From positions 429,501 to 493,500 of the forward strand of contig NC_135568.1 in NCBI RefSeq assembly GCF_964340395.1: a DNA stretch of 64,000 nt. The letters are read 5' to 3'. The stretch's first letter is position 1. Each line of letters starts with the position of its first letter. Source of the stretch: Glandiceps talaboti. Taxonomy: Eukaryota > Hemichordata > Enteropneusta > Spengelidae. The notes beneath the pieces were generated by a model, which worked only from the letters and a program-made list of their open reading frames with translations, was not told the DNA's origin and searched no databases. The position numbers and the translations under genes are program-made. Of the stretch, positions 15,505 to 47,290 are shown piece by piece.

Positions 15505-18333
15505 TCATTTGAGATAGATGATTTGCTTGGATCCACCACAATGTTTTATGACCTCTGACCCAATTTTCCATATTGGAAATTCTATGCCCATATGTGGAGA
15601 GGCCAAAGGAAGGATATGATACATCTTTTCATGAAGATAGATATCATGTGGAGAGGGTGGTTGTAAATCACACAGAATTCCACAGGTATATCGCAAGTTG
15701 TGAAGTTGACTTGTCCTATGTTCTTCAACGTAACCAAAAAGCTCTGCCAGGAAGTAGAATGGATTTGTATCATTCACCGGCTCTATTGAGACTTTTATGA
15801 GACGTTGTTCGAGTAAATGATCAACAACTTCTATTGTGCATGAGAATTGGCCATCTATCACAAACGTGCCAACATTACGGTAGATTCGGAAATACTGGCA
15901 CACTTCAAGGCATCTTGTCATCAGTTTGCGGTGAATGATGTCAGGTTTGAAGAAACCAAAGTCAAAATAAAACGTCTGATGTGGATTTCTTGGACAAAAA
16001 AGAAACTCTGTCGGTCGGAGATACAGCGGTCTGGCATCTGGTACGAAATACTCTTCATTGTTAGATGGAGATTTTTCAATCAAGACAATAAAATTGTACT
16101 CCTTCAGAAGCGCTACCAATACATCAACATAGTCAACTGATAGGTTTTGAAGGATACTGGTCAGGAGGGCATGATGGATAATGCCATGTGATTTAAAACG
16201 GTTGGACATATCAATAAGATGAGGATCACTCTCACTTAAAGTTAAAATAGCCAGGATGGCTTTGACAGCCTTGATCAGAACTACTGGGTTGAAAACAACA
16301 AAATTTGAGAGAACAGGATGATTTGTCCTGTGAATCACCTCACCACAGTGATCCAGATAACCCAGCATGTCTAATGCATCTTGTCGTTTTACAACATCAC
16401 TAGCTTTCAACATCTTTTCAAGTACACTATCCAAGGGTACGATAGTGGATGTGTGGTCATCTTTTCTCATTTGGGCAGGGTTACATAGGTTACTTAAGTT
16501 TCCTCCTTTTGATGTGAAAAGGTGATTGTAAACACTGTACCATCTTATAGGAGTTCTGGGCATCTTATTCCTTAAAGAGAGTACTTTATTCTTCAACGTC
16601 TTCAGTAGATTATTTACATCCGGGCATCGTTCTTCCCATTTCAAGTTATCAATAACAAATAACGGTGCATCAGTTTTCGAATTTATGGCTAGTCGGTGAC
16701 AATATATGGAACCAATGTCACACGTAGAGTTTGTACCATGTAGTTTCTTCTTGAGATACCAAGATATATTAGAAATAGTGCAAAGTGGGACACTATCTCT
16801 ATGTGTTCCAACAAGGAATGTTACAGATTGCGGATTTGAGCTGTGTGTCAAAATTGAATGCAGCCAGAATATCAACCTATCCAGCTCCTTATCCCTGTCG
16901 TCTATGTTTTGGAATTTTCTGAGATCAAACAGTAATAGGAATATGCTATATGTCGGTATTAACACCTGATGGGTCTGGTAGTATAGGTCATCCCCATAGA
17001 AATCAGTCAGCTTCACAGTTACAGGAAAAGGCTCTCTGCCCATTTTGTGGTACATGGTGACATGCATAGCAATTTGATCAATAGGCATGGCTTCATTGAA
17101 AATCAGTTGTCGGTAAAGTTCAATCATTAGAACAGTCAGGAAGGATAGTATAGCAACTGCAGATTGGATACAGTAATCTGTTGGCAACTGCCAGCCAATC
17201 AAATGCCCACAGTATCCACCAATAGCAATTGTTAATGGAAGATACCAAAGACCAGAAAAGTGCCAAATAACATTCAGTCTGGCACCACATGGTAGAGCTG
17301 AATTAGCGAAGAAACTTTGCACGAAACCTGCTACCAAAAGAGTTCCAAGATCAGTATTAGAGTATTGTATTATGGGAATGAAGAGAAGACAAAATGCAGT
17401 CATCAACTTGGTCTTGGCTGACCATTCAGCTCTTACTTTTTGGAAGATAATACATGCTGCAGCACCTATGAATCCCCCGAAAATGACAGCTATCTTCTGA
17501 CCTGATGAGCACGCAGACATTTGTACACATGCACCTCTTGTGTCATCAGCAGTTTCATTTGGTGCTAACATACCACAAAATGCAATGATTACACCAAAAT
17601 GAAGACTTGACTTTGCAAACACACCATACATGAACCCAAACGACGCAAGAAACAGAATAAACACAACATAGGTTTTTAGGTTTGCTGCATCACCATTTTG
17701 GAGAATGTTGTGACTAATGAGTAAGACTGGATCGACTGTTACCAAGTACAAAGACAGACAACTAGATACCATATATGTAGTTACGGGACCATAAATATAT
17801 GATCCAACAAATAGACCTGTCAGAAAGACTAAGGCAGCAATATTTCTATTAAATGTGTTCCGGTCACTAAGGTACATCAACCATACAATGAAACCTAAGC
17901 AAAATATACCAAGATAATACTTCAGTTCCCAGTTATTTAAACCTTGTAATTCTATTTCTTCCTTAGCTCTGGTATCTGCTATTTTCTTTGCCACATACTT
18001 TAGTAGTCTATCTTCGTACTTACAGTAACCTTCAGGGATACCACAAAAGTTTGCATCCACTTCAGCCAGGTTAACTTCCATTTCACATTTATTCCTGTCC
18101 TCAAAAGGCTCTACATTTTTTCTGGTAAGATTCCTCCATAGAGTTGTTTTACCAGACCCAGTATCTCCAAGTATCATGACATTAATTCTGTCTGACTCGA
18201 TATGCCCGTCCGTTTTTGCTTCATGGTAATGGGCTTTGGCATCATCAATTTCAGAATCAGACAGATCACTTACAGTAAAAAAGCGTGCTCGTTTGAACTT
18301 GGACTTGTTCTTTTGTTCATCTGCCATCATCAT
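15505..18333 (-). CDS. Roco-type (ROC-COR) GTPase with about ten membrane helices inserted in the ROC domain
   Basis: 942 residues in one exon. It starts ATG-ATG-ATG at 18333 and ends TGA at 15505-15507. A P-loop GDTGSGKTT is at residues 56-64. Residues about 139-406 contain roughly ten hydrophobic helices (about 139-155, 164-182, 185-201, 221-239, 243-257, 280-297, 309-324, 328-343, 354-377, 388-406). The GTPase then resumes with a G3-like LTDFYGDDLYYQTHQ (441-455; Asp444, Gly447) and G4-like VGTHRDS (508-514), which are typical of ROC domains. A COR-like winged-helix region follows (about 590-700, LDMLGYLDHCGEV) with a further 240 residues. An even helix number would keep both ROC halves cytosolic. 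Known: Roco proteins are signalling GTPases; the ligand and partners here are unknown. There are no LRR, kinase or death domains. A strong splice donor lies 15 bases past the stop. Confidence 0.85.
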   Translation of the reverse strand: MMMADEQKNKSKFKRARFFTVSDLSDSEIDDAKAHYHEAKTDGHIESDRINVMILGDTGSGKTTLWRNLTRKNVEPFEDRNKCEMEVNLAEVDANFCGIPEGYCKYEDRLLKYVAKKIADTRAKEEIELQGLNNWELKYYLGIFCLGFIVWLMYLSDRNTFNRNIAALVFLTGLFVGSYIYGPVTTYMVSSCLSLYLVTVDPVLLISHNILQNGDAANLKTYVVFILFLASFGFMYGVFAKSSLHFGVIIAFCGMLAPNETADDTRGACVQMSACSSGQKIAVIFGGFIGAAACIIFQKVRAEWSAKTKLMTAFCLLFIPIIQYSNTDLGTLLVAGFVQSFFANSALPCGARLNVIWHFSGLWYLPLTIAIGGYCGHLIGWQLPTDYCIQSAVAILSFLTVLMIELYRQLIFNEAMPIDQIAMHVTMYHKMGREPFPVTVKLTDFYGDDLYYQTHQVLIPTYSIFLLLFDLRKFQNIDDRDKELDRLIFWLHSILTHSSNPQSVTFLVGTHRDSVPLCTISNISWYLKKKLHGTNSTCDIGSIYCHRLAINSKTDAPLFVIDNLKWEERCPDVNNLLKTLKNKVLSLRNKMPRTPIRWYSVYNHLFTSKGGNLSNLCNPAQMRKDDHTSTIVPLDSVLEKMLKASDVVKRQDALDMLGYLDHCGEVIHRTNHPVLSNFVVFNPVVLIKAVKAILAILTLSESDPHLIDMSNRFKSHGIIHHALLTSILQNLSVDYVDVLVALLKEYNFIVLIEKSPSNNEEYFVPDARPLYLRPTEFLFCPRNPHQTFYFDFGFFKPDIIHRKLMTRCLEVCQYFRIYRNVGTFVIDGQFSCTIEVVDHLLEQRLIKVSIEPVNDTNPFYFLAELFGYVEEHRTSQLHNLRYTCGILCDLQPPSPHDIYLHEKMYHILPLASPHMGIEFPIWKIGSEVIKHCGGSKQIIYLK

Positions 18334-18357
18334 AGATTTTTTTTATAGCTCTTCAAT
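18334..18357 (-). other. 5' UTR part and splice acceptor of the Roco coding exon
   Basis: The minus strand reads a T-rich tract ending TGTTCACAG at 18358, then ATTGAAGAGC. If spliced to the leader exon at 20410, a small upstream frame ATG-CAA-TGG-ATT-GAA-GAG-CTA-TAA forms, ending ten bases before the main ATG. Confidence 0.5.
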
Positions 18358-23913: not shown

Positions 23914-23919
23914 TTTATT
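23914..23919 (-). terminator. Candidate poly(A) signal AATAAA of the multi-switch gene
   Basis: The minus strand reads AATAAA about 205 bases after the predicted stop codon at 24123. An ATTAAA at 24040-24045 is an alternative. Confidence 0.4.
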
Positions 23920-24122
23920 GAAAATAATACTGGATGACACCAGGGAGGTTATACCACTCAAGATTTGTCTCTCTTGTCTGTAACATGAGAAACAGACATT
24001 CGTATTGTCTCACAGCAAATTAGCAGTTCCATGTGTATCTTTAATAATTCTGTATTGTACAACATCTTCCGGTCCAATGTCGACTTCTATCATCGTAATT
24101 TTAATTTTAATTATTTTCTGAG

Positions 24123-24193
24123 CTACGATGGAAACTCTGTCTCTTCTATTTCGCCAATTGAGTCTTGCTCTGATGACTGTCGACGAGTCATTG
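24123..24193 (-). CDS. Multi-switch gene, exon J (terminal, 71 nt)
   Basis: A very strong acceptor (long TTTTCTTTT tract, GACTATAG). In phase 1 it reads S-M-T-R-R-Q-S-S-E-Q and ends EIEETEFPS then TAG at 24123-24125. RRQS is a further PKA-type site. The acidic C-terminus fits the rest of the protein. Another phase stays open for 51 codons but does not fit exon I. Confidence 0.6.
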
Positions 24194-25989
24194 CTATAGT
24201 CAAAAAAAGAAAAGAAAATTAAACATAAATGTGTTATTGCTATTCTTGTAGTATAGTATGGGGTTACTCAAGGAAACCAGTATAGTATGGGGTTACTAAA
24301 GGAAACCAGTATAGTATGGGGTTACTAAGGGAAACCAGATGGTCGATATTTTGATAGATACACTGAAGGTGAAATTTGAAAATATGTATAAAACATAGTT
24401 GTGACGTATCAATTTTTTAAATAAATTTGATTGTGCAACATTGTACAGGCAATATGACTATACATTATAGACATTACACATTCTGTCACATTTCCCTCTC
24501 AGTCCAACAGCCTGTCCAGTCAACTGCAAAATTCAAATTCAAGTTACCACATTCACTTTCGAAATGCAATATTTTTGGTTCTTTTGGTTATTTTCTGACA
24601 CCAAAGTCCACCATTATTCCATACCTTTAACAACATGAAAGAATTATTGAACACAACTTACATGGCCTCTCAGTAGATACCATGATCGGAGGAATAGGAG
24701 TTACTTTCCGTCTTCTGGTTACAGCTATTTTAGACTGCAATTACAATAAAATCCTAGTTATGACAAGAAATGTGTGAACATGACCATAATAACAAGTGTT
24801 ACCATATGAATACTAATCTCAGTTACCCAGATTCTCACCGCTGGAGCCCTACCACAACACCACCCAGACAAGACAGTCTGGGTAACCGAGACTATGCAAA
24901 TATATGAGAGTAGATTGGTTGAGAAACCAAAGACTGGGTTTGCTGAGAACTCAGTTATGCAACAGTTATCCTGAAATCGTGATGTGTTCAGTGATTAAAC
25001 TGTGGTGACTCACTCAATGATACGACAAAGGAAACTATTCAACTAATGGGGAAATTCATTGAATTATCGATTACTTAGATAATTATTACTACATATTAAT
25101 CAAACACCATGCTACTACCATGGTTACAGCTATACTACATATAATATCAGTGAAAGATATTGGCTCTATTCATTGTGGACGTAAGTGCTGCTCTGATTGA
25201 CTGGATTTCTATACGTACACCTGTACTGTAGTGTTATTTAAATTGGCCGTTTTAGTCTGTGCCTTTGTGTAGAGGTTTGTATAGTTTAGTTTATGCTCCG
25301 AGTCGCTGTGCGAGGTCGTTCGTCTTTTATAGCCAACAGCAGCGGCCAACTTACTTTGTCCCCCTGAAGACGCTACTGTCTAAGGTGAGTTTTTGTTCGA
25401 TTAAATTTCAAGAGAAAATGAAGTCACTATTCTTTGTGAAACAATGTACTGGACCTACACGTCGCAATTTGGGTGTGGCAGAGCACGTTTCCGTGACAGA
25501 GGTAGGACTAGTAGATCCTACAGTGGATGATACTGTATAAACTCAAAACAATGCTCTCAAACTGGGTTCTCCATTCAAATGGTTCGATACATGTATCAAA
25601 TTGTAAATGTAACAAAATGTACACACCTGTTGGTACATGGATGTATCTGGCAAATCACACAGGCTTGATAATCGACCACACTCATCGTCTTCATTCTCTT
25701 CTTCCATTTCACCATCTTTCTTTGTGTCACTGTCATCTGCTTCTTCTTCCTCTTCTTCAAGTGGCTTCTCATCTTCATCCTCTGTGATGGATAATACATT
25801 TCTTTCATCTTTTTCTTTTGATAGCCCATCTTCCTTCTCCGACTCCTCTTCTTCCTGATACACATTCTCAAATGACTTTTGCTGAGCTATTTGTACTATG
25901 GAATGGTCAAGAGTAAAATAGTTACTAGTAGAATTGTGTTAAGATGACATCATTTACTTAATATGCAGATATGGGTAAGTAGAACATAG

Positions 25990-26067
<78 letters not shown>

Positions 26068-29000
26068 GAACTTCTCTTGAATTGTAAATGCTTCAAGTAA
26101 ATTTAATCGTTCAGTTTTGTATAATTAAGTACAATGTATCATCATGCATTGAAATTAAACAGTTTTAGTGAAAATTGTCTTTTTTCATTTTTTATGGTCC
26201 TAAAAATTATCCTCACCTCCCAGTTTTAATGATTTCATATTCAATGTTGCTGGAGTGTTTTTTCTTATGAGAACTTTTTTGCGTGCCTTGGATGAAGTTT
26301 TAGGAGGGATGGTATTGTCAGTACCATGGTCTTTTTCATGTACACCTCTTATTGAATGAGATTCCTCACTATCATCAACTTCCTTGTCGTCTTCTGCAAG
26401 TGTCTGATGACTCTCCGTTTTCATAGACTGGGAGGGCGCTGTAAGATTAAAAGCGGTACATGTCATTGATTGCAGAATACCATAGACCAGAGGGTCTATG
26501 CGAATACTAAGTAAACTAAAGTTAGAGTATATATTGCACCAACCGAGTGCGTAGCACAGCTGGGCACTCGTTTGGTTGTAATATATACATCAAAACACAC
26601 CTGTATGTGGTCACTCATTGGCCAATCAGGTTTGAGGGAGTGTTTACAAATTAGCATATCATTGTGAGCAACAGGCCCAATCCATTTTAACCACATAGCA
26701 TTTATGGAACATGTGTCTTTGTCGCTAGCTCTCAGCTCTCGAATTTATTTTTTACCCAGATAGCATAAATAAAAACAATAGTTTACCATCAAATCTGTGT
26801 TGTTTCATCAAAACAGCTGGCGTTTGTTTTCTTCTAAGTTTACCAACACCATGTCCTTTCTGTTTAGATTTTGCAATGTTGAGGGCACCCTTTGAATCAG
26901 AAGTTTCCGTTTCTTGATAAGATTTTCTTTGCAATATTTTCTTCCTAGCACCACTAGCATTTGATGAATCAATATCCTTTGACTTCATTTGTCTGTTGTT
27001 GTCTCTTTGCAAAGAGTCGGCGTTGTCGGGAGAGAGCGCCATTTGAAGATCTTTTCCTGCTGACTCATTCACTTCAGTACCAGTAACAGGCTCTTCTAAT
27101 TCCGTCGATTCTTCAAGTTTTTCTGGAAATTGTTTGGCATTTCTAGAAGGTGCTAAATACAAATAAAACAAATAAAAACATTTCGATCGATCAATCAGTT
27201 ACATGATCGCTGCCCCCTGTGGTCAGAGTTGATATGATACGCGCGCTCAGCTGTCGTGGAAGCAGCTTTATTGTTATGTAAATTGTTCATGGGGCGGGGA
27301 CGAAACTATAAATTAATAGTTCTTTAGATAATATCTTGTTTTCGCAATACACTGGTACAATATAATAGCGATAAACCACCCCTGGGGATTTGTATACCAG
27401 TTGGTTTTGACTAGTGCACGCAGTATATGCTCGCTATTACTCGTGCATAAATTTCGTGCACTGGTCAAAAACTCTTGTTATACCATCCCAGGTTTATTGC
27501 TTTAAATAAGCAATCATGAAATTCGCCCTCACACCCCGGCCTCACACATATTGTGTCATGTGACGCATATACGCATCATTTTCCAATTAACACAGTGCAT
27601 ATGACGTGAAAATGTGTGTTTCGGAAGTGACTCGCTAAGAACAATTTTGACCTACCACTAAAATTCGGCGGATTTCGTATTACTGCAGGTGTCAGTTTTC
27701 TCTGTCTGGAATGCATTCCTTCTTTATTTTCATCCTTAGTTATGGCTTTCAAATGTTCAGACATTTTATCCGGCACGCTTTCTGAATGCCTGAATTTATC
27801 TCTCTCACGTTTATCCTTTTTCTTTCTTTCCTTTTTGTAAATGTTGAATCTTTCTTCTTCCGGGTCAGAGAAGGTCACGTATTCAAGGTCAAAGTCTTGA
27901 CACGACACCCCACTATCTAAAGATGCATTGTCGTCATTTTGAACATTTTTGCTCATTTCATCATCTTCGTAGTAAATAGCTGAGTCGCTGTTGCAAGGTC
28001 GTGCCTTTGAGGGCGCTGTAACAAGAACGTGTCAAAACGCTATCAAGTTATATCCGCCAAACTTGGGAGGATGATTTATAATGTAATAAGTAATCGAGCT
28101 GGAAAACGGTATGGACAGCAAAACTATTTTTTTTAATAACAAAAAGTATTTTACAGATATCCAAGGTTGGTAAGTACTTCATACCATCCAAACATTCCTA
28201 TCCAAAATCTATAATTGTTGAAACCGCGTCTTGTGTCCCACCCATTTGTCAGAAAATACGGTTTTTAGTTGCATATTGTGAACTCAGCTCGCTATCGGAA
28301 TGATGGGATATTCCTGTCAACTGTGTTTATCTGTATAACCGCTGGTGTGGTCGTTCCGGTTTTGAAGTTCGATTAATGTCCACGTGAATAAATGTATTTT
28401 GTTATATAATTTTAAGTTGCTTTTAATGATAATAGTTATAATTAATATAATCTAAGTTGATTCAACTATTTGAAAAATACAAGACGCAAGGAGATTCTCA
28501 ATATATTGTACATGACAAAGCAAATGAAAAGAGCGCCCTCAGCGACGAATCTCAGTTTGTCGTATACGTTACCTACCTGTAAATAATGGAGAATAAGGCA
28601 AACTTGCTGGTGTACTTTTCCGCTTCGGTGGCATCTGTGTATATAAGATAAATTTTATCAATTTTCCATTGTTGCTAAAATAGTCTCAATAGATGACTAT
28701 AAAGTGAATCAACATATTTGCATTGGCTTTGAACTTCACCAAGCTATGAGCCAGGCGACGTAGCACGCAAAAAGGGATGATACCTGGGCTCTGGTTTCAG
28801 TTCTGGATTTTACCAATGACATCATACTGGTTGGTCAAACTGTGTATCATTCCAGTAAAAAGTGATATACGAGATCTAGAGTAAATGCAACTGGCAGATA
28901 ATTTCGAAACTAGTACAAGTAGCCCGTCAGGTTATAGCCTCGAGTCCATTCGTGTGATGGTTTTGGTTAAATTCATGTATTTTTGGCTATTGTTGGTGGG

Positions 29001-32000
29001 GAGAGGCGATATCACAAATGCCCACACGACTTGACGATAGAGTTCGTCATATAAGCTTACAACATCAACGTTTAGGTGATATGATTTCTCGTCGTACAAT
29101 AAGCAATGTTATTCCTAAGACCAATTTAGTATTTTTAAGGAGTTTTAGACATCTTCGTCGTTTTCCGCTAGACTAATATTAGTCGGCCTGCTCTATCCGT
29201 GAAAAGAGGGTTGATATCGATCGATGATGTGTGAGGGCGCCCCCTCACGGGGTGTACAGACGAGACTCGGCCCACCATGTACCAACCGCTGCAGATAATA
29301 AATGGGTACCATGGATAATAGGAAGGAATGAGAGTGAAATTGAAGTTTCGTCTTACATTTTCCAACAATGCTAAATTCCTACAAAAAAAGACCCACCGGC
29401 CCGCATAAGGTTTTGTGTATGTAATTTTTTTTTTTTTTTTTAGAGAGATTTGGGGATGGAGAATTAGCTTATTGACTCAGTGTTGTCATGGAAATAGCCA
29501 TTGTCTTTAAAGTGCATTACATGTATTTGTGAAGGCATAAAAACTAATACTTTATTCGAATGCTGTTCTGCTTTTTATTTTATGGAACGAAATTTCAAGT
29601 AGTGACACGTAAGCCATTTGTCAGTTAATGACGTATCCGAAACGGGAAACTATTAAATACCACGAAATCACAGTTCCGTATTTATGTAAACGTATACACA
29701 AAACGTAGGGTGCGTCGATTTTAATGTACAACACACGACAATCATATAAACATTACCATCAATGGTATGATAATGGCGGTATTAGTACTGCGTAGCGACA
29801 TATAGGCATGTGCCACCCAAACTGGTCACTTTTCACGAAAAAATCCCTTAAACAAACATAAGTCGACTTTGCATCTGAATATTCCCTAATCATGGGGTCA
29901 ATGATATGGGAAATGTCTTCATATTTCAGGAATGCCTTCAAATAATCCGAAAAAAAGGTAACTTAGTGATCGGATGATTATGACCGGAAATTCCGATTAA
30001 AGGGTCTGTTTTTGGATTATACATGGGTAGATATTTTGAACTTGGGTCGCACACTGTGACCCCGTCTGAAAATTTGGGAAGTATCCCCGTTTGCGTAAGT
30101 TGCCTCAAAATATTAGTTTTCTAACTGTTTGAGGATACCATACACAGCACGTAACTGCGTTGCGAGATCGAAATCTCTGAAAAAAAACCCAGTACTATCC
30201 TTTTTAGGAACATAAACTTTCCGCGCAAAATCGATTCGGAAGTCACGGAGATCATTACGAGGTGACGGGTTCGTTCAATGTCGAATGCTCAGTTAGATCC
30301 AATCTGATTAAAATCCGATGTAGATGTCGGCTAATCGTTCATTGCTATTTTACCTCTACGACGATCAGGCTAAAAAATGTAAACATGTACCAAGAAGGGT
30401 CAATTCAGGCAAAATAACGAAGGTAAAATAGCAATGAACGATTAGCCGACATCTACATCGGATTTTAATCAGATTGAGTAAGATCATGAAAATTAATAAG
30501 GATTTAGTTAGAAGCTTAATATGCTACAAATATTTAACTATAGTAAAAGAACATTAGTGAGATTGCCTGTAAATACTATAAAAACATAAATCAAATGTAA
30601 TTATAAACTATTTGGACTCTACGGTTGACTGGGTATTGACACTTTGTAACATTTTATGTGATTTCTATGTCGATAAATGTTGATATTTCTGTTATTTCTG
30701 TAACAATTTATGGGATTTCTATCTCGATAAATATTGATACTTATGTAACAATTTATGTGTACTGATTTCTATCTCGATAAATATTGATACTTATGTAACA
30801 TTTTATGTGATTTCTATCTCGATAAATATTGATATATATATGTTTACGAAAGATATCGACTAGTACATGCGTGCACCTTTCATAAAACTAATTTTTTTGT
30901 TTACATTTGAAATCATATGCTTATTCAATAATATTATCGCTATGAAAACACGATAAAGAAAACTATATTGTACTGTCCTATTGTAAAGTTAATTTAAAAA
31001 GAATTCTGTAAAATCACAGTGTCAGATAACATGTTATGCTGTCCTATCAGACACCACTCCATGACGTATCTTACAGTCGAGTAAAAGCATGGCCATTCTG
31101 AGATAACATGAAAACAGCTTTCGTAAATGTTGCTATGGGAACAACGAATAAGTATATCGAAGATGAGAATAATCAAAAAATGCCCCTTCCCTCATGTTTG
31201 CAAGGAAACTTTTAAAGATATACTTGCCTGATGATGCCGCAATTATATTAAAGTCGTCAAGAATATGTAATATAAAAAGCAGAAGTAAATCAACACATGC
31301 GTGGTGCGATGCACTAAGTCATGTAATTTAGTTCCTCTTCCCTTGCCTTTTCATCCACAGAAAGGAGATACGCATGCGCACCAAGCATAAATTGATAAAT
31401 GTGTTTTATGAATAGTTATTTTACCGTTTTCTTTGGTTCCTCCTCAACGTCTTCCTTCAGCGTTTCTTGTTCCTCCTCCTCCTCCTCTTCCTCCTCCTCC
31501 TCCTCCTCCTCTTCCTCTGCCTCCTCTTCTTCTTCTTGCTCTTCTAACTCTTCTTCCCCTCTCCTTTCCTTGCCTTCCTCCTCCTCCTCTCGCTCCTCTT
31601 CAACTTCTTCTCTTTTCTCTTCCTTCTCCCTGCCTTCCTCCTTCTCTCCCTTCCCCTCTTCTACTTCTTCTTCTTCCTGCCCCTCCCCCTTCACTAGTTC
31701 CCGTGTCTCTTCTTCAAGTTCTCCTTCGCTTCTGTTGCTGTCGTCTGTATTTTCTCTATGTTCTTCTAACCTAGCCGACTGTGAGGTAATTATTCTTTGA
31801 GGTGGTTCATAATCTTGACATTCATCTTCTTCGTCAATACTACGTGCATTGAATTGTTGTAGACCTTCTTTTAAATCTAGAATAGAACGAATATTAATGT
31901 CAACATTTGTTAAATAGTCCTTTTGGCATAATACTCGGTTGAAATATATATTTTTAGCACAACTGAACTGATAAAGGTTCAGTAGTGCTATAGGCTTGGT

Positions 32001-32013
32001 GCGGTGTCTGTCC

Positions 32014-32093
<80 letters not shown>

Positions 32094-32534
32094 ACGACTT
32101 AAACTCAAAAACCACCAGACCGATTGCCTTGGTATTTGGTGGGGAGATTACTTGTGGTGTCTAGTTGGGAAATTGCTCAAATGAAAATGGTCGCTTCACA
32201 GATATGTGGTTTGGGTAAAAAAAATGTGATTTTTGGTCAAAAAAGACAAGAAAAGAAAAAATATCTTTTCCGTGTACATCATATCGATGCGTATTCTTGT
32301 CAAGAATAAACTGTTTATCCTTGTTGTGGAACATTTTAATGAACATTTCATTGTTACTTATTTTACCAAAGTTTTGTTGAGTAAAGTTTTTTGAAGGGGG
32401 TGGGGTGTATATCTGGTGAAGTGATCATAAATAAGTGTAAAATATTCAGTTCGATTCGTTTATTTTCGGATAGATGTTGTTTTGATATGTTGGTGGTCGT
32501 AAATCGTTCTCATGAACACCAAACACACAAACAA

Positions 32535-32585
<51 letters not shown>

Positions 32586-35135
32586 CTTCATCACACCTCA
32601 GTTCAGTTGTGCTAAAGTTCTCAAAAATTGACAGAAAGTGCGACAGAGTTATAAGTGTTAGTCTAGTCCTAAATTGAACGTGTTACGATAAAAAGACCGT
32701 CGACAACGACTATACGTATATAGGTAGATAGACTGTCAATAGTCGTCTTGACTTTTTTGTAATTTATCTTTAATACTCTTTTTGCTGCTGAAATTAATAG
32801 AATTAAAACATGGTGTGTGTTGGACGTTAGATGAAGTCAATTGTATTTATGTGCCCGAATCCTTAGTGAGTAATAGTGTAGTGCGCGTTCTGTATCGTGT
32901 GTATAGAACAGAGAATGTACATTGTACATGCTGATTATTATATCACATGTTATAGGTTATGTATGTGCACATAATTAGTATTTAAATAAAACAATATTTC
33001 AGAAACTTTTCTAGGAATACGACAAAATGTAATCCGCGTTTGAATACAGACTAATAGGTAGATTAAATAAGTGTATATTTGATATAAACCATGTTTAGAA
33101 AGATCACAGGCTAGAGACTATCCATTAACTTTTTCACGCCTAATTTTTAACCCCTTTGATCAAAGTGGGCCTTTAACCATGGTTTCAATCCCAGGTTCTC
33201 GCGTCAGTGTTATTTTATCAGTGGCGCATGAAGATAACATAGGCTTATTTTTTGTTCTGGACCAACTTTTCCAAAGCTCTTTCAGACAACTCTTTTTCAC
33301 ACCTCACATTTAATTGTTTTTTTAATATCAAAACGAGCCTTTTTACCATTTGTAATGATCACTAGATTCAAATGCCAACGGCCATGGAATAGTCTAGATG
33401 GATGTAGAGTCAGCTAATCGATAGTGGCAATTAGTATATTACCATGTTTCGTACATAATCTTGTAAAATATACACTAAATACCTGTGTTAACCTTTCAAC
33501 GTTTCTTAACATATATATGTGTGTACAGAAAGTTACAGCAAGTTGAGTAAGATTATACCTGCAGTCATAATAAATTAAATGAAATCGAGCAGATTTCTCC
33601 CAGTTCATTATATATTGGTCCACTAGCTTATTACAGTTGAGACAATAAGAGTGAATAGTTGTAACCGATACCTACAAATTGGAACACGCACCGTACTGTC
33701 ACATGCATTGTTAGATGTCGACCCCACTACAACCCTCCGGCTGTGAGAAGGAAATCCCTACACAATAACATTGTATAGATGCTATGCGTCAACAGAAGTG
33801 AGCAAAGCCAGTAATTCAGAAAACATGGTAATGTTACATAACGACACTGAACTCTTGTTTATGAACTTTGGCATGTTGGCAGGCAGTCCATAAATTAATG
33901 TAATTTTTGGTAAGCTCAATTACACGGAGGATTTGTTGATTTATAAAAGGTAGTGTTACATTAATTCTTAGGTTAATTATAAATATATTCCGTGATGTAA
34001 ATAACGCATGGAGGGACATTGTTTGATGATGCATCTATTTACAGCTGGACTGTGTAAGTGATTTGACGCTATTCACGGATACTATACAAACATAGAACAA
34101 CCTTGAAGCTGGAATGTGTGTGGTCACAATTAGTTCATTCATCTTCGAACTGTAGCTTTTAATTTATTTGACGAAAATTTGTTCACAAAATACATCGTTA
34201 GATGTACCTCATACATGTACGTGTACATGTAGGCACCAAATTAAAGCATTTACCGGACATTGAAACAATATTTTACAATTTACACATACTTCTGAGAAAA
34301 TGTTGTGTAGTTGTTTTAGAAAGTAACAAATAACTAACAAACAAAAACAAAACAACATGTGTCAACAACTTTACGAACATACAAAACTTTGTATCCTTAC
34401 CTTCCCGTGATGGTAGTTTCAAAATAGCTGGAGTTATTTTGCGTCGACGTTCTTTCGGTTTCTCAGGTTGTTGTTCCAAAGTGTCCCCGTCACACGATGA
34501 ATTGAAGCCTCTGTCGGAATATGCTGCTGTAAAACTTTGTGCGGTTGTCGACCCGTAGTACTCTGACGTTGATCGAGGGATAGAAGATTTGCTTGGGAAA
34601 CCACCACCACCTGAAATAGATTCCATTTTACTTTTTGTCGCCCACTAATTCAACCGGAGATCAGGAGCTGTTATCAAGCAAGCTGGAGACTTAAACTAGA
34701 TAGCGAGTTTACCCATGATCCAATGCGTTAAATGCATTAACGAATTTCGTACACTGTTTGCGGTGACAATATTGATAACAAATAATGCCAAAACGATTTT
34801 GGTTTTGGTTTTTACTAGAGAAATTTACACAATATTTAGTATCAATAGCATAAAGTATATTGTAGTAACAGTTAACTTAACAGAGAGTTAGCTGTGTGGT
34901 GTGTATTTTGGCATTACATGTATATAGGTTAAATTATTGAATACGGGTTAAAATACTAAATGAAGCTTCCCACGTAAGTAGTTTGACAAGTCAGAAATCT
35001 TAAAACATGATCATATCGAAATTATTTTTTTGAGTACTAAGTGAATATTTTGGTGAGCACATATCCAGAAGATACCGTCAATCGTCACTTGTGACCGCAG
35101 TGCATGAGTGAGTGAATGGTTGATTGATTGAATGT

Positions 35136-35190
<55 letters not shown>

Positions 35191-35256
35191 TGTGTGTGTG
35201 TGTGTGTGTGTGTACGCATAAGCGTGCGTATTAAGTATTTATTTATGTTTATATAC

Positions 35257-35334
<78 letters not shown>

Positions 35335-35650
35335 AGATTCTCTCAGAAGTCAGATTACTAAATTTGGTGAAGGCATGATGAAGTCTAAGTAATAACCATC
35401 GAATTTCAACCGTTGAGGGCGCCCTCGATTGTATTTTATGTTTTTGTTGTTTGTTTGCGATTTTTTTTTGGGGGGGGGGGTATATTTGAAGAACTGCTAA
35501 ACGTCGGCGATAGTATACGCACAAACGAGTGCTGTCTAGTTGCAGTTGTCTATAAATCGCTGATATAAAATTCATCATCAAAAACCGTCCTACCTTTCAG
35601 TCGTGAGCTTGGTAGCAGGGTTGGCACAGAGTTACGTGACAGGATTCTTG
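24123..35650 (-). CDS. Gene model (10 visible exons): multi-motif PP1-inhibitor-like phosphoprotein
   Basis: Ten exons join in frame with GT-AG sites (2130 coding bases, 709 residues plus stop; N-terminus not found). Six exons carry R-K-x-T-P, usually followed by Ala and a hydrophobic residue, and a seventh carries SRNSVP. In vertebrate inhibitor-1 and DARPP-32 (PPP1R1 family) the motif RRRRPTPA is phosphorylated by PKA on Thr and then blocks the PP1 active site. The visible copies match the PKA consensus and the T-P-A context. Acidic low-complexity exons alternate with motif exons, as in the acidic tail of DARPP-32. Against the assignment: a clear PP1-docking RVxF motif is not seen, though it could lie in the missing N-terminal exon. 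It is probably cytosolic and disordered. Exon calls rest on splice consensus, phase and repeated motif. The function is inference. Confidence 0.6.
24241..24345. repeat. Three tandem copies of a 29-bp unit
   Basis: GTATAGTATGGGGTTACT plus 11 more bases, repeated nearly perfectly just 3' of the terminal exon acceptor of the multi-switch gene (in its last intron). Confidence 0.9.
24662..24734 (-). CDS. Multi-switch gene, exon I (73 nt, phase 0 to 1)
   Basis: Acceptor TTGTAATTGCAG, donor CCAT/GTAAGT. It encodes SKIAVTRRRKVTPIPPIMV followed by STERP. The switch keeps R-K-V-T-P but has Ile in place of Ala. The phases are exactly those required between exon H and the final exon. Confidence 0.65.
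24814..24894. mobile_element. MITE-like element, family 1 copy 1 (81 bp)
   Basis: 20-bp terminal inverted repeats, about 17 of 20 matching: left TAATCTCAGTTACCCAGATT, right AGTCTGGGTAACCGAGACTA. A second element with the same ends lies at 56008-56114. Confidence 0.65.
25627..25886 (-). CDS. Multi-switch gene, exon H (260 nt, phase 1 to 0), acidic
   Basis: The acceptor is TACAAATAG with a pyrimidine tract further upstream, and the donor is CAACAG/GTGTGT. It starts A-Q-Q-K-S, runs through Glu/Asp-rich sequence, and ends CGRLSSLCDLPDTSMYQQ. Like exon C it is an acidic phase 1-to-0 exon, which predicts a phase 0-to-1 motif exon next. That exon was found at 24662-24734. Confidence 0.62.
25990..26066. 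repeat. Microsatellite (CT)n
   Basis: About 38 pure CT units in an intron of the multi-switch gene. Confidence 0.98.
26217..26438 (-). CDS. Multi-switch gene, exon G (222 nt, phase 1 to 1)
   Basis: Acceptor ATCTTACAG, donor GGAG/GTGAGG. It starts A-P-S-Q-S, has a Glu/Asp/His/Ser stretch, and ends KVLIRKNTPATLNMKSLKLG. It is the shortest of the three A-P-S exons. Confidence 0.67.
26481..26588. repeat. Two hairpins: 8-bp perfect and about 24-bp imperfect inverted repeat
   Basis: CATAGACC/GGTCTATG (26481-26500, 4-base loop) is followed by an imperfect pair of arms at 26527-26550 and 26564-26588, sharing GTATATATT...CGAGTGC. This is probably a fold-back MITE remnant in an intron. Confidence 0.55.
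26787..27152 (-). CDS. Multi-switch gene, exon F (366 nt, phase 1 to 1)
   Basis: Acceptor GTATTTAG, donor GATG/GTAAAC. It starts A-P-S like exons E and G, continues with Glu/Ser/Asp-rich sequence and a KKILQRKSY segment, and ends KLRRKQTPAVLMKQHRFD. It is probably a duplicate of exon E or G. A perfect CTCF-like core lies 56 bases upstream of its acceptor. Confidence 0.68.
27208..27222 (-). promoter_or_regulatory. CTCF-like core, best match in window
   Basis: The minus strand reads CCACAGGGGGCAGCG, identical to common vertebrate CTCF cores. It lies just upstream of exon F of the multi-switch gene. Confidence 0.55.
27368..27500. mobile_element. Fold-back element (133 bp)
   Basis: Long imperfect palindrome. 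The outer arms are GCGATAAACC...CCTGGG and CCCAGGTTTATTGC; the inner arms are GACTAGTGCACG and CGTGCACTGGTC. No coding capacity. Confidence 0.6.
27656..28015 (-). CDS. Multi-switch gene, exon E (360 nt, phase 1 to 1)
   Basis: Acceptor TTGTTACAG, donor AGTG/GTAGGT. The peptide begins A-P-S, has an acidic part with YVTFSDPEEE, a Lys/Arg-rich helix-like segment (KKERKKKDKRERDK), and ends RQRKLTPAVIRNPPNFS. YVTF resembles the V-x-F half of a PP1-docking motif but lacks the preceding basic residue. Confidence 0.68.
28577..28634 (-). CDS. Multi-switch gene, exon D (58 nt, phase 0 to 1)
   Basis: Acceptor TATACACAG, donor ACAG/GTAGGT. It encodes MPPKRKSTPASLPYSPLFT. It carries the R-K-S-T-P-A switch and matches exon A in length and phase. 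The Met is internal, because the preceding exon C ends in phase 0 with KKT. Confidence 0.65.
28635..30290. other. Intron of the multi-switch gene, 5' of exon D (part)
   Basis: Mostly unique sequence with two GAGGGCGC-type motifs nearby (29233 here and 28532 just outside). A 22-base GAATTTAGC... segment near 29360-29381 has an acceptor and donor consensus and phases 0 to 1, but no switch motif, so I did not call it. Confidence 0.4.
30300..30476. mobile_element. MITE with perfect 56-bp inverted repeats and 9-bp target duplication
   Basis: 30300-30355 and 30421-30476 are perfect reverse complements separated by a 65-base loop. The flanks AGTTAGATC (30291-30299) and AGTAAGATC (30477-30485) match at 8 of 9 positions. 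A 9-bp duplication with long inverted repeats fits a Mutator-like (MULE) non-autonomous element. It sits in an intron of the multi-switch gene. Confidence 0.85.
30640..30845. repeat. Minisatellite, about 45-50-bp unit
   Basis: Four copies of 'atttctatctcgataaatat' followed by 'tgatacttatgtaaca'. The first is diverged ('gtcgataaatgttgat'). Confidence 0.8.
31425..31876 (-). CDS. Multi-switch gene, exon C (452 nt, phase 1 to 0), Glu-rich
   Basis: Acceptor CTATTCTAG, donor AAAACG/GTAAAA (weak after the first four bases). It starts D-L-K-E-G-L-Q-Q-F and includes a Gln/Ser/Arg segment. It then runs into about 90 residues of almost pure Glu with Lys/Arg/Gly interruptions, and ends KKT. The plus-strand Pro/Ser frames here are shadows of this run. 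The length of the Glu run may be polymorphic because it is a GAG/GAA microsatellite. Confidence 0.55.
31953..32616. mobile_element. Non-autonomous DNA element with 19-bp inverted repeats and two microsatellites
   Basis: TTTAGCACAACTGAACTGA at 31953-31971 is perfectly inverted at 32598-32616. Inside are a pure (GT)n run at about 32015-32092, a non-repetitive core ('ccaccagaccgattgccttg'), and (ACAG)n at about 32539-32583. The core looks like a dispersed family. No clear target duplication. Confidence 0.7.
32617..34400. other. Intron of the multi-switch gene between exons B and C (part)
   Basis: AT-rich sequence with no repeat array and no convincing extra exon. Confidence 0.45.
34401..34610 (-). 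CDS. Multi-switch gene, exon B (210 nt, phase 1 to 1)
   Basis: Acceptor CTATTTCAG, donor GAAG/GTAAGG. It encodes a Gly/Ser/Thr-rich stretch, then ERRRKITPAILKL near its end. An ATG at 34626, with an in-frame stop seven codons upstream, could be an alternative start of a shorter protein, with transcription beginning in this exon. I prefer splicing from exon A because it completes a Gly codon. Confidence 0.6.
35133..35331. repeat. Compound microsatellite (GT)n-(GA)n-(GT)n and (TA)n
   Basis: A symmetric GT/GA/GT block (35133-35211), then a 70-base pure TA run (about 35262-35331). It lies in the intron between exons A and B. Confidence 0.97.
35415..35426. promoter_or_regulatory. Perfect palindrome GAGGGCGCCCTC
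   Basis: Two head-to-head GAGGGC half-sites related to the CTCF-like octamer found repeatedly in this locus. It is intronic, 170 bases downstream of exon A. Confidence 0.35.
35593..35650 (-). CDS. Multi-switch gene, exon A (58 nt, phase 0 to 1)
   Basis: Acceptor TTTCTATAG, donor AAAG/GTAGGA. It encodes ARILSRNSVPTLLPSSRLK plus one base. It has the same length and phases as exon D, with a phospho-acceptor Ser at the same position (8) as the Thr of exon D. This is the weakest motif copy (Arg at -2 only). The exon before it, which must end in phase 0, was not found. Confidence 0.5.
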
Positions 35651-35771
35651 CCTATAGAAATAGAACATAGATTAAGTCATTTTGAATCTCATTTACTGTC
35701 ACTCGTTAGCTACAGTACTATAGATGGGGTCCTTTAACTCGGTATATATATACACTTTCATATCCATATAC

Positions 35772-40520: not shown

Positions 40521-40984
40521 AGGGTGCTGCTGCAGTTTTTATCTTGTATTTCGTTATCTTGAATTCATTCCATACCACTGTAATTTAAATTGGCTTCTCC
40601 ATTTCTTTCCTGTTCATGTATACAAATGACGTTCTACTCTAATACATTGTTTCTAAGCTATCATTACTAAAGGAACAACCTAGATTATGGTTGTTTCCGC
40701 CCTTATATACTTAATTCTAGGTTGAAAGACATTTTTACAGAAATTGTTGATGACATTCTAATCTATTCATTCTATTCGTGGCAGCATGATTTTAGATATC
40801 ATCTAAGAATCCCTCAGAGGTAAAGAGCAGTAAATGTTACCATGGTTACACACGGAAGAGAGAAGACATGACATACTAAGGTAGGCGAAAACACTGGTGT
40901 TATTGACATATGTTGAAGGCAACGTGTTATATGTGACAGTACTGTGATGTATTATTGAGATAGGTTGAAGGTTATATATACATA

Positions 40985-43900
40985 TACATATACTAGAGTA
41001 GTGATGTATTACTGAGATAGGTTGAAAGTAACATAAATATACTAGAGTACTGTGATGTACTAGTGAGATAGGTTGAAAGTAACATAAATATACTAGAGTA
41101 CTGTGATGTACTACTGAGATAGATTGAAAGTAACATAAATATACTAGAGTACTGTGATGTACTATTGAGATAGATTGAAAGTAACATAAATATACTAGAG
41201 TACTGTGATGTATTATTGAGATAGGTTGAAAGTAACATAAATATACTAGAGTACTGTGATGTATTACTGAGATAGATTGAAAGTAACATAAATATACTAG
41301 AGTACTGTGATGTGTTACTGAGATAGATTGAAAGTAACATAAATATACTAGAGTACTGTGATGTACTACTGAGATAGGTTGAAAGTAACATAAATATACT
41401 AGAGTACTGTGATGTATTACTGAGATAGATTGAAAGTAACATAAATATACTAGAGTACTGTGATGTATTATTGAGATAGATTGAAAGTAACATAAATATA
41501 CTAGAGTACTGTGATGTATTATTGAGATAGATTGAAAGTAACATAAATATACTAGAGTACTGTGATGTATTATTGAGATAGATTGAAAGTAACATAAATA
41601 TACTAGAGTACTGTGATGTATTACTGAGATAGATTGAAAGTAACATAAATATACTAGAGTACTGTGATGTACTACTGAGATAGATTGAAAGTAACATAAA
41701 TATACTAGAGTACTGTGATGTATTATTGAGATAGATTGAAAGTAACATAAATATACTAGAGTACTGTGATGTATTATTGAGATAAATTGAAAGTAACATA
41801 AATATACTAGAGTACTGTGATGTATTACTGAGATAGGTTGAAAGTAACATAAATATACTAGAGTACTGTGATGTATTACTGAGATAGATTGAAAGTAACA
41901 TAAATATACTAGAGTAATGGGATGTACTACTGAGATAGATTGAAAGTAACATAAATATACTAGAGTACTGTGATGTACTACTGAGATAGATTGAAAGTAA
42001 CATAAATATACTACAGCACTGTGATGTGTTACTGAGATAGATTGAAAGTAACATAAATATACTAGAGTACTGTGATGTACTACTGAGATGGATTGAAAGT
42101 AACATAAATATACTAGAGTACTGTGATGTATTTCTGAGATAGATTGAAAGTAACATAAATATACTAGAGTACTGTGATGTATTACTGAGATGGATTGAAA
42201 GTAACATAAATATACCAGAGTACTGTGATGTATTATTGAGATAGGTTGAAAGTAACATAAATATACTAGAGTACTGTGATGTATTTCTGAGATAGATTGA
42301 AAGTAACATAAACATACTAGAGTACTGAGATGTATTACTGAGATAGATTGAAAGTAACATAAATATACTAGAGTACTGTGATGTATTACTGAGATAGATT
42401 GAAAGTAACATAAATATACTAGAGTACTGTGATGTACTATTGAGATAGATTGAAAGTAACATAAATATACTAGAGTACTGTGATGTATTACTGAGATAGG
42501 TTGAAAGTAACATAAATATACCACAGTACTGTGATGTATTACTGAGATAGGTTGAAAGTAACATAAATATACTAGAGTACTGTGATGTGTTACTGAGATA
42601 GATTGAAAGTAACATAAATATACTATTGTACTGTGATGTACTACTGAGATGGATTGAAAGTAACATAAATATACTACAGCACTGTGATGTGTTACTTAGA
42701 TAGATTGAAAGTGACATAAATATACTATTGTACTGTGATGTATTACTGAGATAAATTGAAAGTAACATAAATATACTACAGTACTGTGATGTGTTATTGA
42801 GATAGGTTGAAAGTAACATAAATATACTAGAGTACTGGGATGTGTTACTGAGATAGGTTGAAAGTAACATAAATATACTAGAGTACTGTGATGTATTATT
42901 GAGATAGATTGAAAGTAACGTAAATATACTAGAGTACTGGGATGTGTTACTGAGATAGGTTGAAAGTAACATAAATATACTAGAGTACTGGGATGTATTA
43001 CTGAGATGGATTGAAAGTAACATAAATATACTAGAGTACTGTGATGTACTACTGAGATAGATTGAAAGTAACATAAATATACCACAGTACTGTGATGTAT
43101 TACTGAGATAGATTGAAAGTAACGTAAATATACTAGAGTACTGGGATGTATTACTGAGATAGATTGAAAGTAACATAAATATACCACAGTACTGTGATGT
43201 ATTACTGAGATAGATTGAAAGTAACGTAAATATACTAGAGTACTGGGATGTGTTACTGAGATAGGTTGAAAGTAACATAAATATACTAGAGTACTGTGAT
43301 GTATTACTGAGATAGATTGAAAGTAACATAAATATACTAGAGTACTGTGATGTACTACTGAGATAGATTGAAAGTAACATAAATATACTAGAGTACTGTG
43401 ATGTATTATTGAGATAGGTTGAAAGTAACATAAATATACCACAGTACTGTGATGTATTACTGAGATAGGTTGAAAGTAACATAAATATACTAGAGTACTG
43501 GGATGTACTACTGAGATAGATTGAAAGTAACGTAAATATACTAGAGTACTGGGATGTATTACTGAGATAGATTGAAAGTAACATAAATATACCACAGTAC
43601 TGTGATGTATTACTGAGATAGATTGAAAGTAACGTAAATATACTAGAGTACTGGGATGTGTTACTGAGATAGGTTGAAAGTAACATAAATATACTAGAGT
43701 ACTGTGATGTGTTACTTAGATAGATTGAAAGTGACATAAATATACTAGAGTACTGTGATGTATTACTGAGATAGATTGAAAGTAACATAAATATACTAGA
43801 GTACTGAGATGTATTACTGAGATAGATTGAAAGTAACATAAATATACTAGAGTACTGTGATGTATTACTGAGATAGATTGAAAGTAACATACATATACTA

Positions 43901-46085
43901 GAGTACTGTGATGTATTACTGAGATAGGTTGAAAGTAACATAAATATACTAGAGTACTGTGATGTGTTACTGAGATAGATTTAAAGTAACATAAATATAC
44001 TAGAGTACTGTGATGTATTATTGAGATAGATTGAAAGTAACATAAATATACTAGAGTACTGGGATGTGTTATTGAGATAGATTGAAAGTAACATACATAT
44101 ACTAGAGTACTGTGATGTATTACTGAGATAGATTGAAAGTAACATAAATATACTAGAGTACTGTGATGTATTACTGAGATAGATTGAAAGTAACATACAT
44201 ATACTAGAGTACTGTGATGTATTACTGAGATAGGTTGAAAGTAACATAAATATACTAGAGTACTGTGATGTATTACTGAGATAGATTGAAAGTAACATAA
44301 ATATACTAGAGTACTGTGATGTACTACTGAGATAGGTTGAAAGTAACATAAATATACTAGAGGACTGTGATGTATTATTGAGATAGATTGAAAGTAACAT
44401 AAATATACTAGAGTACTGTGATGTATTACTGAGATAGATTGAAAGTAACATAAATATACTAGAGTACTGTGATGTATTATTGAGATAGATTGAAAGTAAC
44501 ATAAATATACTAGAGTACTGTGATGTATTATTGAGATAGATTGAAAGTAACATAAATATACTAGAGTACTGTGATGTATTATTGAGATAGGTTGAAAGTA
44601 ACATAAATATACTAGAGTACTGTGATGTATTATTGAGATAGATTGAAAGTAACATAAATATACTAGAGTACTGTGATGTATTATTGAGATAGGTTGAAAG
44701 TAACATAAATATACTAGAGTACTGTGATGTATTATTGAGATAGATTGAAAGTAACATAAATATACTAGAGTACTGTGATGTGTTATTGAGATAGGTTGAA
44801 AGTAACATAAATATACTAGAGTACTGTGATGTATTACTGAGATAGATTGAAAGTAACATAAATATACTAGAGTACTGTGATGTACTACTGAGATAGATTG
44901 AAAGTAACATAAATATACTAGAGTACTGTGATGTATTACTGAGATAGATTGAAAGTAACATAAATATACTAGAGTACTGTGATGTACTACTGAGATAGAT
45001 TGAAAGTAACATAAATATACTAAAGTACTGTGATGTATTACTGAGATAGATTGAAAGTAACATAAATATACTAGAGTACTGTGATGTATTACTGAGATAG
45101 ATTGAAAGTAACATAAATATACTAGAGTACTGTGATGTACTACTGAGATAGATTGAAAGTAACATAAATATACTAGAGTACTGTGATGTATTACTGAGAT
45201 AGGTTGAAAGTAACATAAATATACTAGAGTACTGTGATGTATTATTGAGATAGGTTGAAAGTAACATAAATATACTAGAGTACTGTGATGTATTATTGAG
45301 ATAGATTGAAAGTAACATAAATATACTAGAGTACTGTGATGTGTTATTGAGATAGGTTGAAAGTAACATAAATATACTAGAGTACTGTGATGTATTACTG
45401 AGATAGATTGAAAGTAACATAAATATACTAGAGTACTGTGATGTACTACTGAGATAGATTGAAAGTAACATAAATATACTAGAGTACTGTGATGTATTAC
45501 TGAGATAGATTGAAAGTAACATAAATATACTAGAGTACTGTGATGTACTACTGAGATAGATTGAAAGTAACATAAATATACTAAAGTACTGTGATGTATT
45601 ACTGAGATAGATTGAAAGTAACATAAATATACTAGAGTACTGTGATGTATTACTGAGATAGATTGAAAGTAACATAAATATACTAGAGTACTGTGATGTA
45701 CTACTGAGATAGATTGAAAGTAACATAAATATACTAGAGTACTGTGATGTATTACTGAGATAGGTTGAAAGTAACATAAATATACTAGAGTACTGTGATG
45801 TACTACTGAGATAGATTGAAAGTAACATAAATATACTAGAGTACTGTGATGTATTACTGAGATAGATTGAAAGTAACATAAATATACTAGAGTACTGTGA
45901 TGTATTATTGAGATAGGTTGAAAGTAACATAAATATACTAGAGTACTGTGATGTACTACTGAGATAGATTGAAAGTAACATAAATATACTAGAGGACTGT
46001 GATGTACTACTGAGATAGATTGAAAGTAACATAAATATACTAGAGTACTGTGATGTATTACTGAGATAGGTTGAAAGTAACATAC
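40985..46085. repeat. Satellite array, 51-bp unit, about 100 copies (5.1 kb)
   Basis: Unit ACTAGAGTACTGTGATGTAT followed by TACTGAGATAGATTGAAAGT and AACATAAATAT. Variants are concentrated at a few positions (ctact/ttact/ttatt, agatt/aggtt, tgtg/tggg, taac/tgac). Because 51 is 17 codons, long stop-free frames of up to 982 codons arise on the minus strand, repeating a 17-residue S/L/Y/I/T-rich unit. I treat them as non-coding: several minus-strand frames are open at once and no gene signals surround them. A 561-bp (11-unit) duplication is visible near 44460-45700. Confidence 0.96.
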
Positions 46086-47290
46086 ATAACCTTATTGTCA
46101 TTCCCTTTAAACATTCATTTACTATACATGGTCGAATAATGTTTAGTAGCAACTGGAGCTCACACCGGGAATTTCTCAAATGTCCTTATGATGTCATTTT
46201 GCAGATATCGATAAATGTGGGGGAAAGACCATAGTCTCATTTCCACCTGCGTCTAGTCTAAATAAGATTTAGTATATTGTATGTTTGCATTTTGTTCAGT
46301 GAGACATTAGTGCAAAAATGACGTCATGTAACAGACCATGTCACTTTTAAGTGAATAACAAAGATATAAATAACGACTGACGTCTGTGTGGCCATTTCCT
46401 CATTATTAATTAATTGACAAAACCCATTACATTATATTCTTTCCGTTCAGGATTCCTTATATCGTTGTTATATCACGTGTAATGGGACTTAAGTATTCGC
46501 TTGTCTCTAGTCTGGATGCCAACGTGATATCCAATCAGCTCTGTAACCCCGTCTAAGTCAAACTGACTCAATCATGAACCAAAGATGTTCATGCAAATGA
46601 GTATACTCCAAGTGTTATGATGATGTAAACAGTGTATAGTAGCGTGGTCATTGGCAACGTCAATCAACTTGAGTGGATGCCTGTGTTGACGTACATGATT
46701 ATTTTGTCACTGGTTACTGATAGGTAAGTGGCAGTGTCAATCAACTTGGGTGGATGCTAATGATGTAGACAGTGTATAAGTAGCATACCATATTTGGACA
46801 TTAGAATTATGTAATTGATTAATAAGACATGATGTTAATGACTGTGTGGGTGGCTGTGGTTGAATCTTAAATTTCATCTCATGCATCTCAGGACGTCATT
46901 GAGGTAGACTCAAAGAGAGATCTTAACTTAAGATTCGATGAATGATAACACTACACTAGATTGTCTCTTGACGACCACAACAGCTAAAGTAGCAAAGTCT
47001 GTAACAGTTACTAAGGCTGGATATGTGATTTCACTATGCTTCGTTCACTATCAACACAGCGATCCAGTGATGTCGACAACCTAACCCATTTCCGACTAGG
47101 AGCAGTAGTGTACACAAATATAATAGTGGTTAAATATGGTAACCAATAAACTTTGGTGTTTTTCTAATTTATTGGTAACCAATCAATGACATCATAAGGA
47201 TATTTTCATATCTAAATTCCCGGTGAGAGTTTTACCAGTTACTAAATATGATATGATATGTGTCGGTAGTTGGAATGCCATCAATATATC
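46086..47290. other. Non-coding interval after the satellite
   Basis: It holds a two-copy diverged repeat near 46615-46790 ('aatcaacttgagtggatgc' and 'aatcaacttgggtggatgc', with 'gatgtaaacagtgtata' relatives). No gene. Confidence 0.5.

Follow-up and report, generated by a model that had tools for sequence, protein, structure and literature searches.

A gene with repeated inhibitor-like switches

We analysed a 64,000-nucleotide stretch of the genome of Glandiceps talaboti (contig NC_135568.1, positions 429,501 to 493,500), hereafter the window, which is numbered from its first letter. On its minus strand, between 24123 and 35651, ten putative exons (a to j) join in one frame of 712 codons followed by a TAG stop at 24123, and along this frame recurs a short motif, R-K-x-T-P-A, that resembles the phosphorylation switch of known protein inhibitors of protein phosphatase 1 (PP1). 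The boundaries of the exons were placed by eye around the motifs. All nine junctions are GT-AG with phases in agreement; exons b, e, f and g run from phase 1 to phase 1, c and h from 1 to 0, and a, d and i from 0 to 1. A gene with repeated inhibitor-like switches, as the first-pass annotation of this DNA had proposed, is well supported by splice phases, exon geometry, codon variation and motif statistics.

Six R-K-x-T-P motifs are found on the minus strand, with the first base of xRKxTP at 34446, 28625, 27704, 26835, 26268 and 24713. They are the only ones in the six-frame translation of the window; each sits within an exon of the gene model and the plus strand has none. In 300 first-order Markov sequences of equal length, translated in six frames, RKxTP occurred on average 0.41 times (maximum 3) against the 6 observed, and RKxTPA 0.01 times (maximum 1) against 5. 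Motif count and single-strand placement thus rule out a chance occurrence of kinase sites, and the six exact copies claimed at first pass are borne out. The unit reads R-K-x-T-P-A-x-[L/I] in five copies (b, d, e, f and g), with an exact RRKxTPA in b and f, and R-R-K-V-T-P-I-P-P-I in the sixth (i). Successive switch threonines are separated by 73 to 169 residues.

A matrix of the six copies was used to rank 53,513 stop-free 15-residue windows. When each copy was left out of the matrix in turn, five of the six units outranked all non-member windows, and unit d ranked 12th. A motif scan of the whole window and 60 kb more of the contig (where 68001-70500, in extended coordinates, reads N) yielded no further switches, the best non-member scoring 11.9 against 34.5-39.6 for the members. 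Within exon f, ARKKILQRKSY (ARKKILQRKSYQE, 26900-26960, minus strand) mirrors ARKKVLIRKNTPA in exon g (26260-26300) and is a possible degenerate eighth copy; its rank by the unit matrix, 197 of 53,513, is not significant.

The codons that spell the switch vary between copies. The arginine ahead of the lysine is encoded by CGC, CGG, AGA, AGA, AGA and CGG, the switch threonine by ACT, ACA, ACA, ACG, ACT and ACT, and the lysine by AAA in all six. Across the R, K, T and P codons, positions 1, 2 and 3 are identical in 51/60, 60/60 and 30/60 pairwise comparisons, where the agreement at position 2 is built in because the residues were selected by a motif search, and that at position 3 falls to 15/45 when the invariant lysine is excluded. 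So low an agreement of third positions rules out a DNA repeat as the origin of the switches. Judging from the variation at position 3 and from arginine codons of both the AGA and the CGN type, the copies seem to be old and to have been maintained as protein rather than as DNA.

Exons and their shared geometry

The first exon with an exact switch is b (34401..34610, 210 nucleotides), which encodes RRRKITPAIL and has a weak pyrimidine tract at its acceptor. It is followed by exon c (31425..31876, 452 nucleotides), a glutamate-rich spacer whose core (31470-31601) is a GAG/GAA simple repeat. In the intron between exons c and d, at 30300-30480, two near-identical stretches of about 50 bases were seen by eye in opposite orientation, possibly a hairpin or the end of a miniature inverted-repeat transposable element. 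Exon d (28577..28634, 58 nucleotides) carries PPKRKSTPASL, exon e (27656..28015, 360 nucleotides) RQRKLTPAVI, exon f (26787..27152, 366 nucleotides) LRRKQTPAVL and exon g (26217..26438, 222 nucleotides) VLIRKNTPATL. Exon h (25627..25895, 269 nucleotides) is an acidic spacer and has the top score over 24000-35700 in a simple coding and splice scan, the training of which drew partly on exons of the gene model itself. Exon i (24662..24734, 73 nucleotides) carries TRRRKVTPIPP, with isoleucine replacing alanine. Directly after this switch, PPIMVS (found by pattern scan) resembles a calcineurin PxIxIT docking site, and may do so by chance. The last coding exon, j (24123..24193, 71 nucleotides), encodes SMTRRQSSEQDSIGEIEETEFPS and then the TAG; its C-terminal RRQS is an additional likely site for a basophilic kinase. 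Downstream of it lie ATTAAA from 24111 and AATAAA at 23919, which are weak evidence in such AT-rich DNA.

In all seven exons with a switch or its degenerate equivalent, a phase 1 donor-like site follows the switch threonine codon (the valine codon in a) at one of three closely spaced distances: 34 nucleotides in a and b, 37 in d, e and f, and 40 in g and i. The chosen donor is the top-scoring one in six of these exons and is tied in f. Exons e, f and g start with APS, and b with GGGFPSK; outside the switch the identity of the units to the first one is poor (22-25%). One symmetric exon duplicated in tandem would produce such a geometry and such shared exon starts, and in the pairs c+d and h+i the unit seems to have been divided by an intron. 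Since the units run from phase 1 to phase 1, singly (b, e, f and g) or as 1-0/0-1 pairs (c+d and h+i), exon skipping could alter the number of switches with the frame intact.

The 5′ end and the seventh copy

Seven tandem switches had been counted at first pass. Of these six stand, whereas the seventh is weak. It lies in exon a (35594..35651, 58 nucleotides, acceptor TTCTATTTCTATAG, donor GTAGG), a putative exon of doubtful membership that would encode ARILSRNSVPTLLPSSRLK. The switch-equivalent SRNSVP (35639) is without the lysine and the threonine, and its rank of 151 of 53,513 by the six-copy matrix is not significant. Exon a resembles exon d in length and phase, and its donor lies 34 nucleotides past the switch-equivalent codon in phase 1; a donor-like site at 34, 37 or 40 nucleotides is expected by chance at about 6% of positions (3 x 1298/64000). 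A possible alternative translation start, at 34611..34626 on the minus strand, bypasses this exon: the ATG stands in an AAAATGG context, reads MESIS and then continues in frame into exon b, with an in-frame TAG seven codons upstream. Translation from it would yield a protein of 698 residues with six switches. The simple scan found no upstream exon scoring above 5.4 in 35652-60000. We regard six switches as firm and the seventh as doubtful.

Likeness to known phosphatase inhibitors

G-substrate is a small protein of about 155 residues with two sites, whereas the window gene encodes some 700 residues with six or seven switches. What the two have in common is more than one site and an R-R-K-x-T-P-A core in the same register. 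Inhibitor-1 and IPP5 have one switch each and an N-terminal KIQF docking motif, whereas no such motif was found here. Their basic-x-T-P-A-[T/S]-L tail is like the TPAIL, TPASL, TPAVI, TPAVL and TPATL of the window gene, but R-R-P precedes their threonine where the window units have R-K-x. A basic-basic-x-T-P-A-x-L switch of the PPP1R1 type is present in five of the six copies (b, d, e, f and g, with isoleucine for leucine in e), and copy i reads TPIPPI.

DARPP-32, whose switch RRRRPTPAMLF lies in the PP1 active site, needs both this segment and KKIQF, which docks elsewhere (PMC4972821). In zebrafish it also has a glutamate stretch of variable length (PMC4972821), and inhibitor-1 and DARPP-32 are described as of low molecular mass, natively unstructured and acidic (PMC6282683). 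The window protein resembles DARPP-32 in its switch, its glutamate stretch and, by composition only, its disorder and acidity: it is of low hydropathy, its charge and hydropathy place it among disordered proteins relative to the charge-hydropathy line, and its isoelectric point (pI) is 4.69. It differs in that DARPP-32 combines a single switch with KKIQF at a low mass, whereas here the mass is 81 kDa and no Pfam family matches.

Inhibitor-1 and DARPP-32 (RRRRPTPA) had been the comparison made at first pass. The likeness of the TPAx[L/I] tail holds, but the comparison left out the nearest printed sequence found, that of G-substrate, also known as PPP1R17. This protein is a preferred substrate of the cGMP-dependent kinase PKG in Purkinje cells, and its phosphorylated form is said to inhibit PP1/2A (PMC10869263); elsewhere it is termed an inhibitor of PP1 (PMC8020659). 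Human PPP1R17 is printed in PMC4177983 in two lines of 18 residues, RYDVQERHPKGKMIPVLH and NTDLEQKKPRRKDTPALH, and the G-substrate peptide given there ends in KKPRRKDTPALH, with the core RRKDTPA. Peptides of inhibitor-1 (QIRRRRPTPATLV) and IPP5 (QIRKRRPTPASLV) are printed in PMC7865299. Against the unit matrix G-substrate scored 23.3 (12/13 positions), inhibitor-1 15.6 and IPP5 13.9, compared with 10.7 for the best of 59,195 null windows, a set that excludes windows carrying RK at the motif position. Since RKxTP is what the matrix was derived from, the test favours G-substrate and gives high scores to RKxTPA in part by construction. For six further kinase-substrate peptides in PMC7865299 the scores run from -23.2 to 2.4. 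By printed peptide and matrix score, G-substrate displaces inhibitor-1 as the closest relative for the switch core. In sequence, the window units combine the RRKxT core seen in G-substrate with the TPAxL tail seen in inhibitor-1 and IPP5. With G-substrate as the nearest printed sequence, repeated switches may moreover have a precedent in its two sites.

Proposed function

We propose that this is an animal gene that arose by repeated duplication of phase-1 exons, and that its long, probably disordered product, with six (perhaps seven) R-K-x-T-P-A-x-L switches, would act as a phosphatase inhibitor with multiple sites, under the control of PKA or PKG. We regard the chances of this proposal as evenly balanced. 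What the sequence itself shows is the open chain of exons, the excess of motifs, their common exon geometry, conservation of the motif as protein and a disorder-like composition; transcription, phosphorylation, phosphatase binding and any graded response are inferred. PKA or PKG would phosphorylate the switch threonines, R-K-x-T suiting both kinases. Each phosphothreonine would then occupy the active site of a PP1-type, possibly a PP2A-type, phosphatase as a slowly hydrolysed pseudosubstrate, the mode put forward for inhibitor-1, DARPP-32 and G-substrate. Several switches per chain could make the inhibition graded, buffered or multivalent, and at their 73-169 residue spacing several phosphatase molecules might sit on one chain, or a single molecule might meet a higher effective concentration of inhibitor. 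Single switches may be weak without a docking motif, for which repetition could compensate.

A wider and more tentative suggestion is that of a phosphatase rheostat built from one duplicated switch exon: a disordered chain on which six or seven pseudosubstrate sites could each be phosphorylated separately, their number tunable by in-frame skipping, which would convert cyclic AMP or cyclic GMP signals into graded or multivalent inhibition of PP1/PP2A. A single ancestral unit, possibly from outside the vertebrates, would then combine the TPAxL tail of inhibitor-1 with the RKxT core of G-substrate.

Several findings weigh against a phosphatase inhibitor, or against the gene model beneath it, in addition to the bias of the matrix scores given above. 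A pattern scan of the 712 residues found none of the docking motifs RVxF, SILK and MyPhoNE, the closest sequences being VTF in an acidic setting, AILK inside switch b and PPIMVS in exon i. No Pfam-A family matched at E<=10 (the 712-residue model and six segments, 7/7 queries empty). For two segments no relative was found in the PDB, a lone match to an origin recognition subunit (E 1.2) being judged due to chance. At 81.4 kDa the model is not small as inhibitor-1 and DARPP-32 are. Its acidity is due to exons c and h, and the other parts are basic (pI 10.28 for a+b and 8.75 for e+f+g). Moreover, the simple coding and splice scan recovers exactly only five of the nine exons a to i (a, d, e, h and i); it prefers another acceptor for exon b, other donors for c and f, and an acceptor 11 nucleotides further inside g. 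Other donor-like sites lie within 75 nucleotides of the switch in five of the seven switch exons, and the 5′ end is not settled between exon a and the ATG at 34626.

A first exon with a docking motif was sought among six RVxF-like matches on the minus strand within 88 kb upstream. None fits: in five of the six the frame reaches its stop without passing a donor-like site. Such a search could miss a first exon that is short or built in another way, and 68001-70500 reads N. The KKVTF at 71860 (extended coordinates, minus strand) is of RVxF type and lies in a 29-codon frame 36 kb upstream, in which an ATG is directly followed by AAGAAAGTAACATTT. The sole donor-like site of this frame is in phase 2 and joins neither exon a nor exon b.

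Given the lack of an RVxF-type docking motif and of a Pfam match, we do not place the protein in the PPP1R1 or G-substrate family. It plausibly works like these inhibitors.

Alternative explanations

The gene may be real and its switches serve another role, as multi-site phosphorylation or docking sites of, for example, a scaffold or cytoskeletal protein with repeated basic-x-T-P. The want of a phosphatase docking motif and of a Pfam match would suit such a protein, as would the long variable spacers and the acidic tracts. However, conservation runs beyond the kinase site into TPAx[L/I] in five of the six copies, a tail common to the DARPP-32 active-site segment RRRRPTPAMLF (PMC4972821). As a plain kinase site needs no such tail, its conservation counts against a non-inhibitor role, which we consider possible but rather doubtful.

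We would attach a similarly modest probability to the gene being a plain orthologue of G-substrate or of a PPP1R1 family member, one that has already been deposited from related animals, with the number of copies only a lineage detail. The mechanism would then overlap with that of the multi-site inhibitor proposed above. Motif register and core equal those of the G-substrate RRKDTPA (PMC4177983), and TPAxL is shared with the printed inhibitor-1 and IPP5 peptides (PMC7865299). On the other hand, the 712 residues give no Pfam match and contain no RVxF, and a passage of PMC4972821, citing Yger and Girault 2011, states that invertebrates and agnathans lack DARPP-32.

That the model is an artefact, made of unconnected open frames or the remains of a decayed gene, seems very unlikely. 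The short exons a, d and i score essentially no higher in the coding scan (4.0, 3.6 and 5.6) than the best false upstream exons (5.4 and 4.4), and the scan misses the boundaries of four exons. However, the frame is intact across nine junctions, and the switch residues are fixed while their synonymous codons vary. Furthermore, the open frames around exons b, c, e, f, g and h (123, 243, 151, 148, 129 and 131 residues) crowd into about 10.5 kb of one strand, whereas Markov sequences matched in composition average 1.8 frames of at least 120 codons per 64 kb on both strands together (150 simulations, maximum 6).

Least probable of all is a repeat-rich nucleolar-type phosphoprotein like Treacle or Nopp140, in which exon-encoded acidic blocks alternate with basic TP-containing ones: repeated symmetric exons, acidic tracts and TP sites are present here, but only two exons are acidic, these are rich in glutamate instead of Ser/Asp/Glu clusters, proline makes up just 39 of the 712 residues and no Pfam family matches.

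If the multi-site inhibitor is real, it would be a natural one in which dose, cooperativity and valency of a single well-studied switch become accessible through exon deletion. It would also bear on the origin of the inhibitor-1, DARPP-32 and G-substrate switches, and may represent an expanded version of a known brain-signalling device. According to PMC4972821, neither invertebrates nor agnathans have DARPP-32, so an invertebrate array of switches would lengthen the history of that device.

Copy number and relatives

A protein search of the animal's own genome (590,416,875 bases, 47 contigs), with a query of 541 residues from which exon a and parts of the glutamate-rich stretches were omitted, returned ten matches at E<=10. 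All ten lie inside the gene, so that no paralogue is seen at that sensitivity. Among 31 contigs of this genome with lengths on view, 15 measure 16-36 Mb, as in an assembly at chromosome level. A crude test by longest open frames under three genetic codes recognised no mitochondrial contig in the first 10 kb of 12 small contigs, two of which are at least half N. Relatives were sought by tblastn with 197 residues from exons f and g only, in two collections ill-suited to an animal gene: genome_contigs gave 36 pattern matches and viral_contigs 3, none of them confirmed. Among openly licensed papers, a literature search found no multi-switch protein of this type, and the names G-substrate, inhibitor-1 and DARPP-32, so spelled, are absent from the available excerpt of the review PMC5754374. 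Orthologues may nevertheless exist, deposited under some name.

Other features of the window

No Rfam family or tRNA was found in the window. On the minus strand, 15505-18342 is a single open frame of 945 residues with matches to Roc (27.9 bits, cut-off 27) and COR-A (32.1 bits, below the cut-off of 35.3), ahead of which lies a long hydrophobic, membrane-like stretch. From 40984 to 46088 a 51-bp unit is repeated about 100 times with 95% matches; open frames of up to 995 residues within it are probably no genes, because 51 is a multiple of three. Lastly, on the plus strand at 2576-3979, an open frame of 467 residues encodes several C2H2 zinc fingers.

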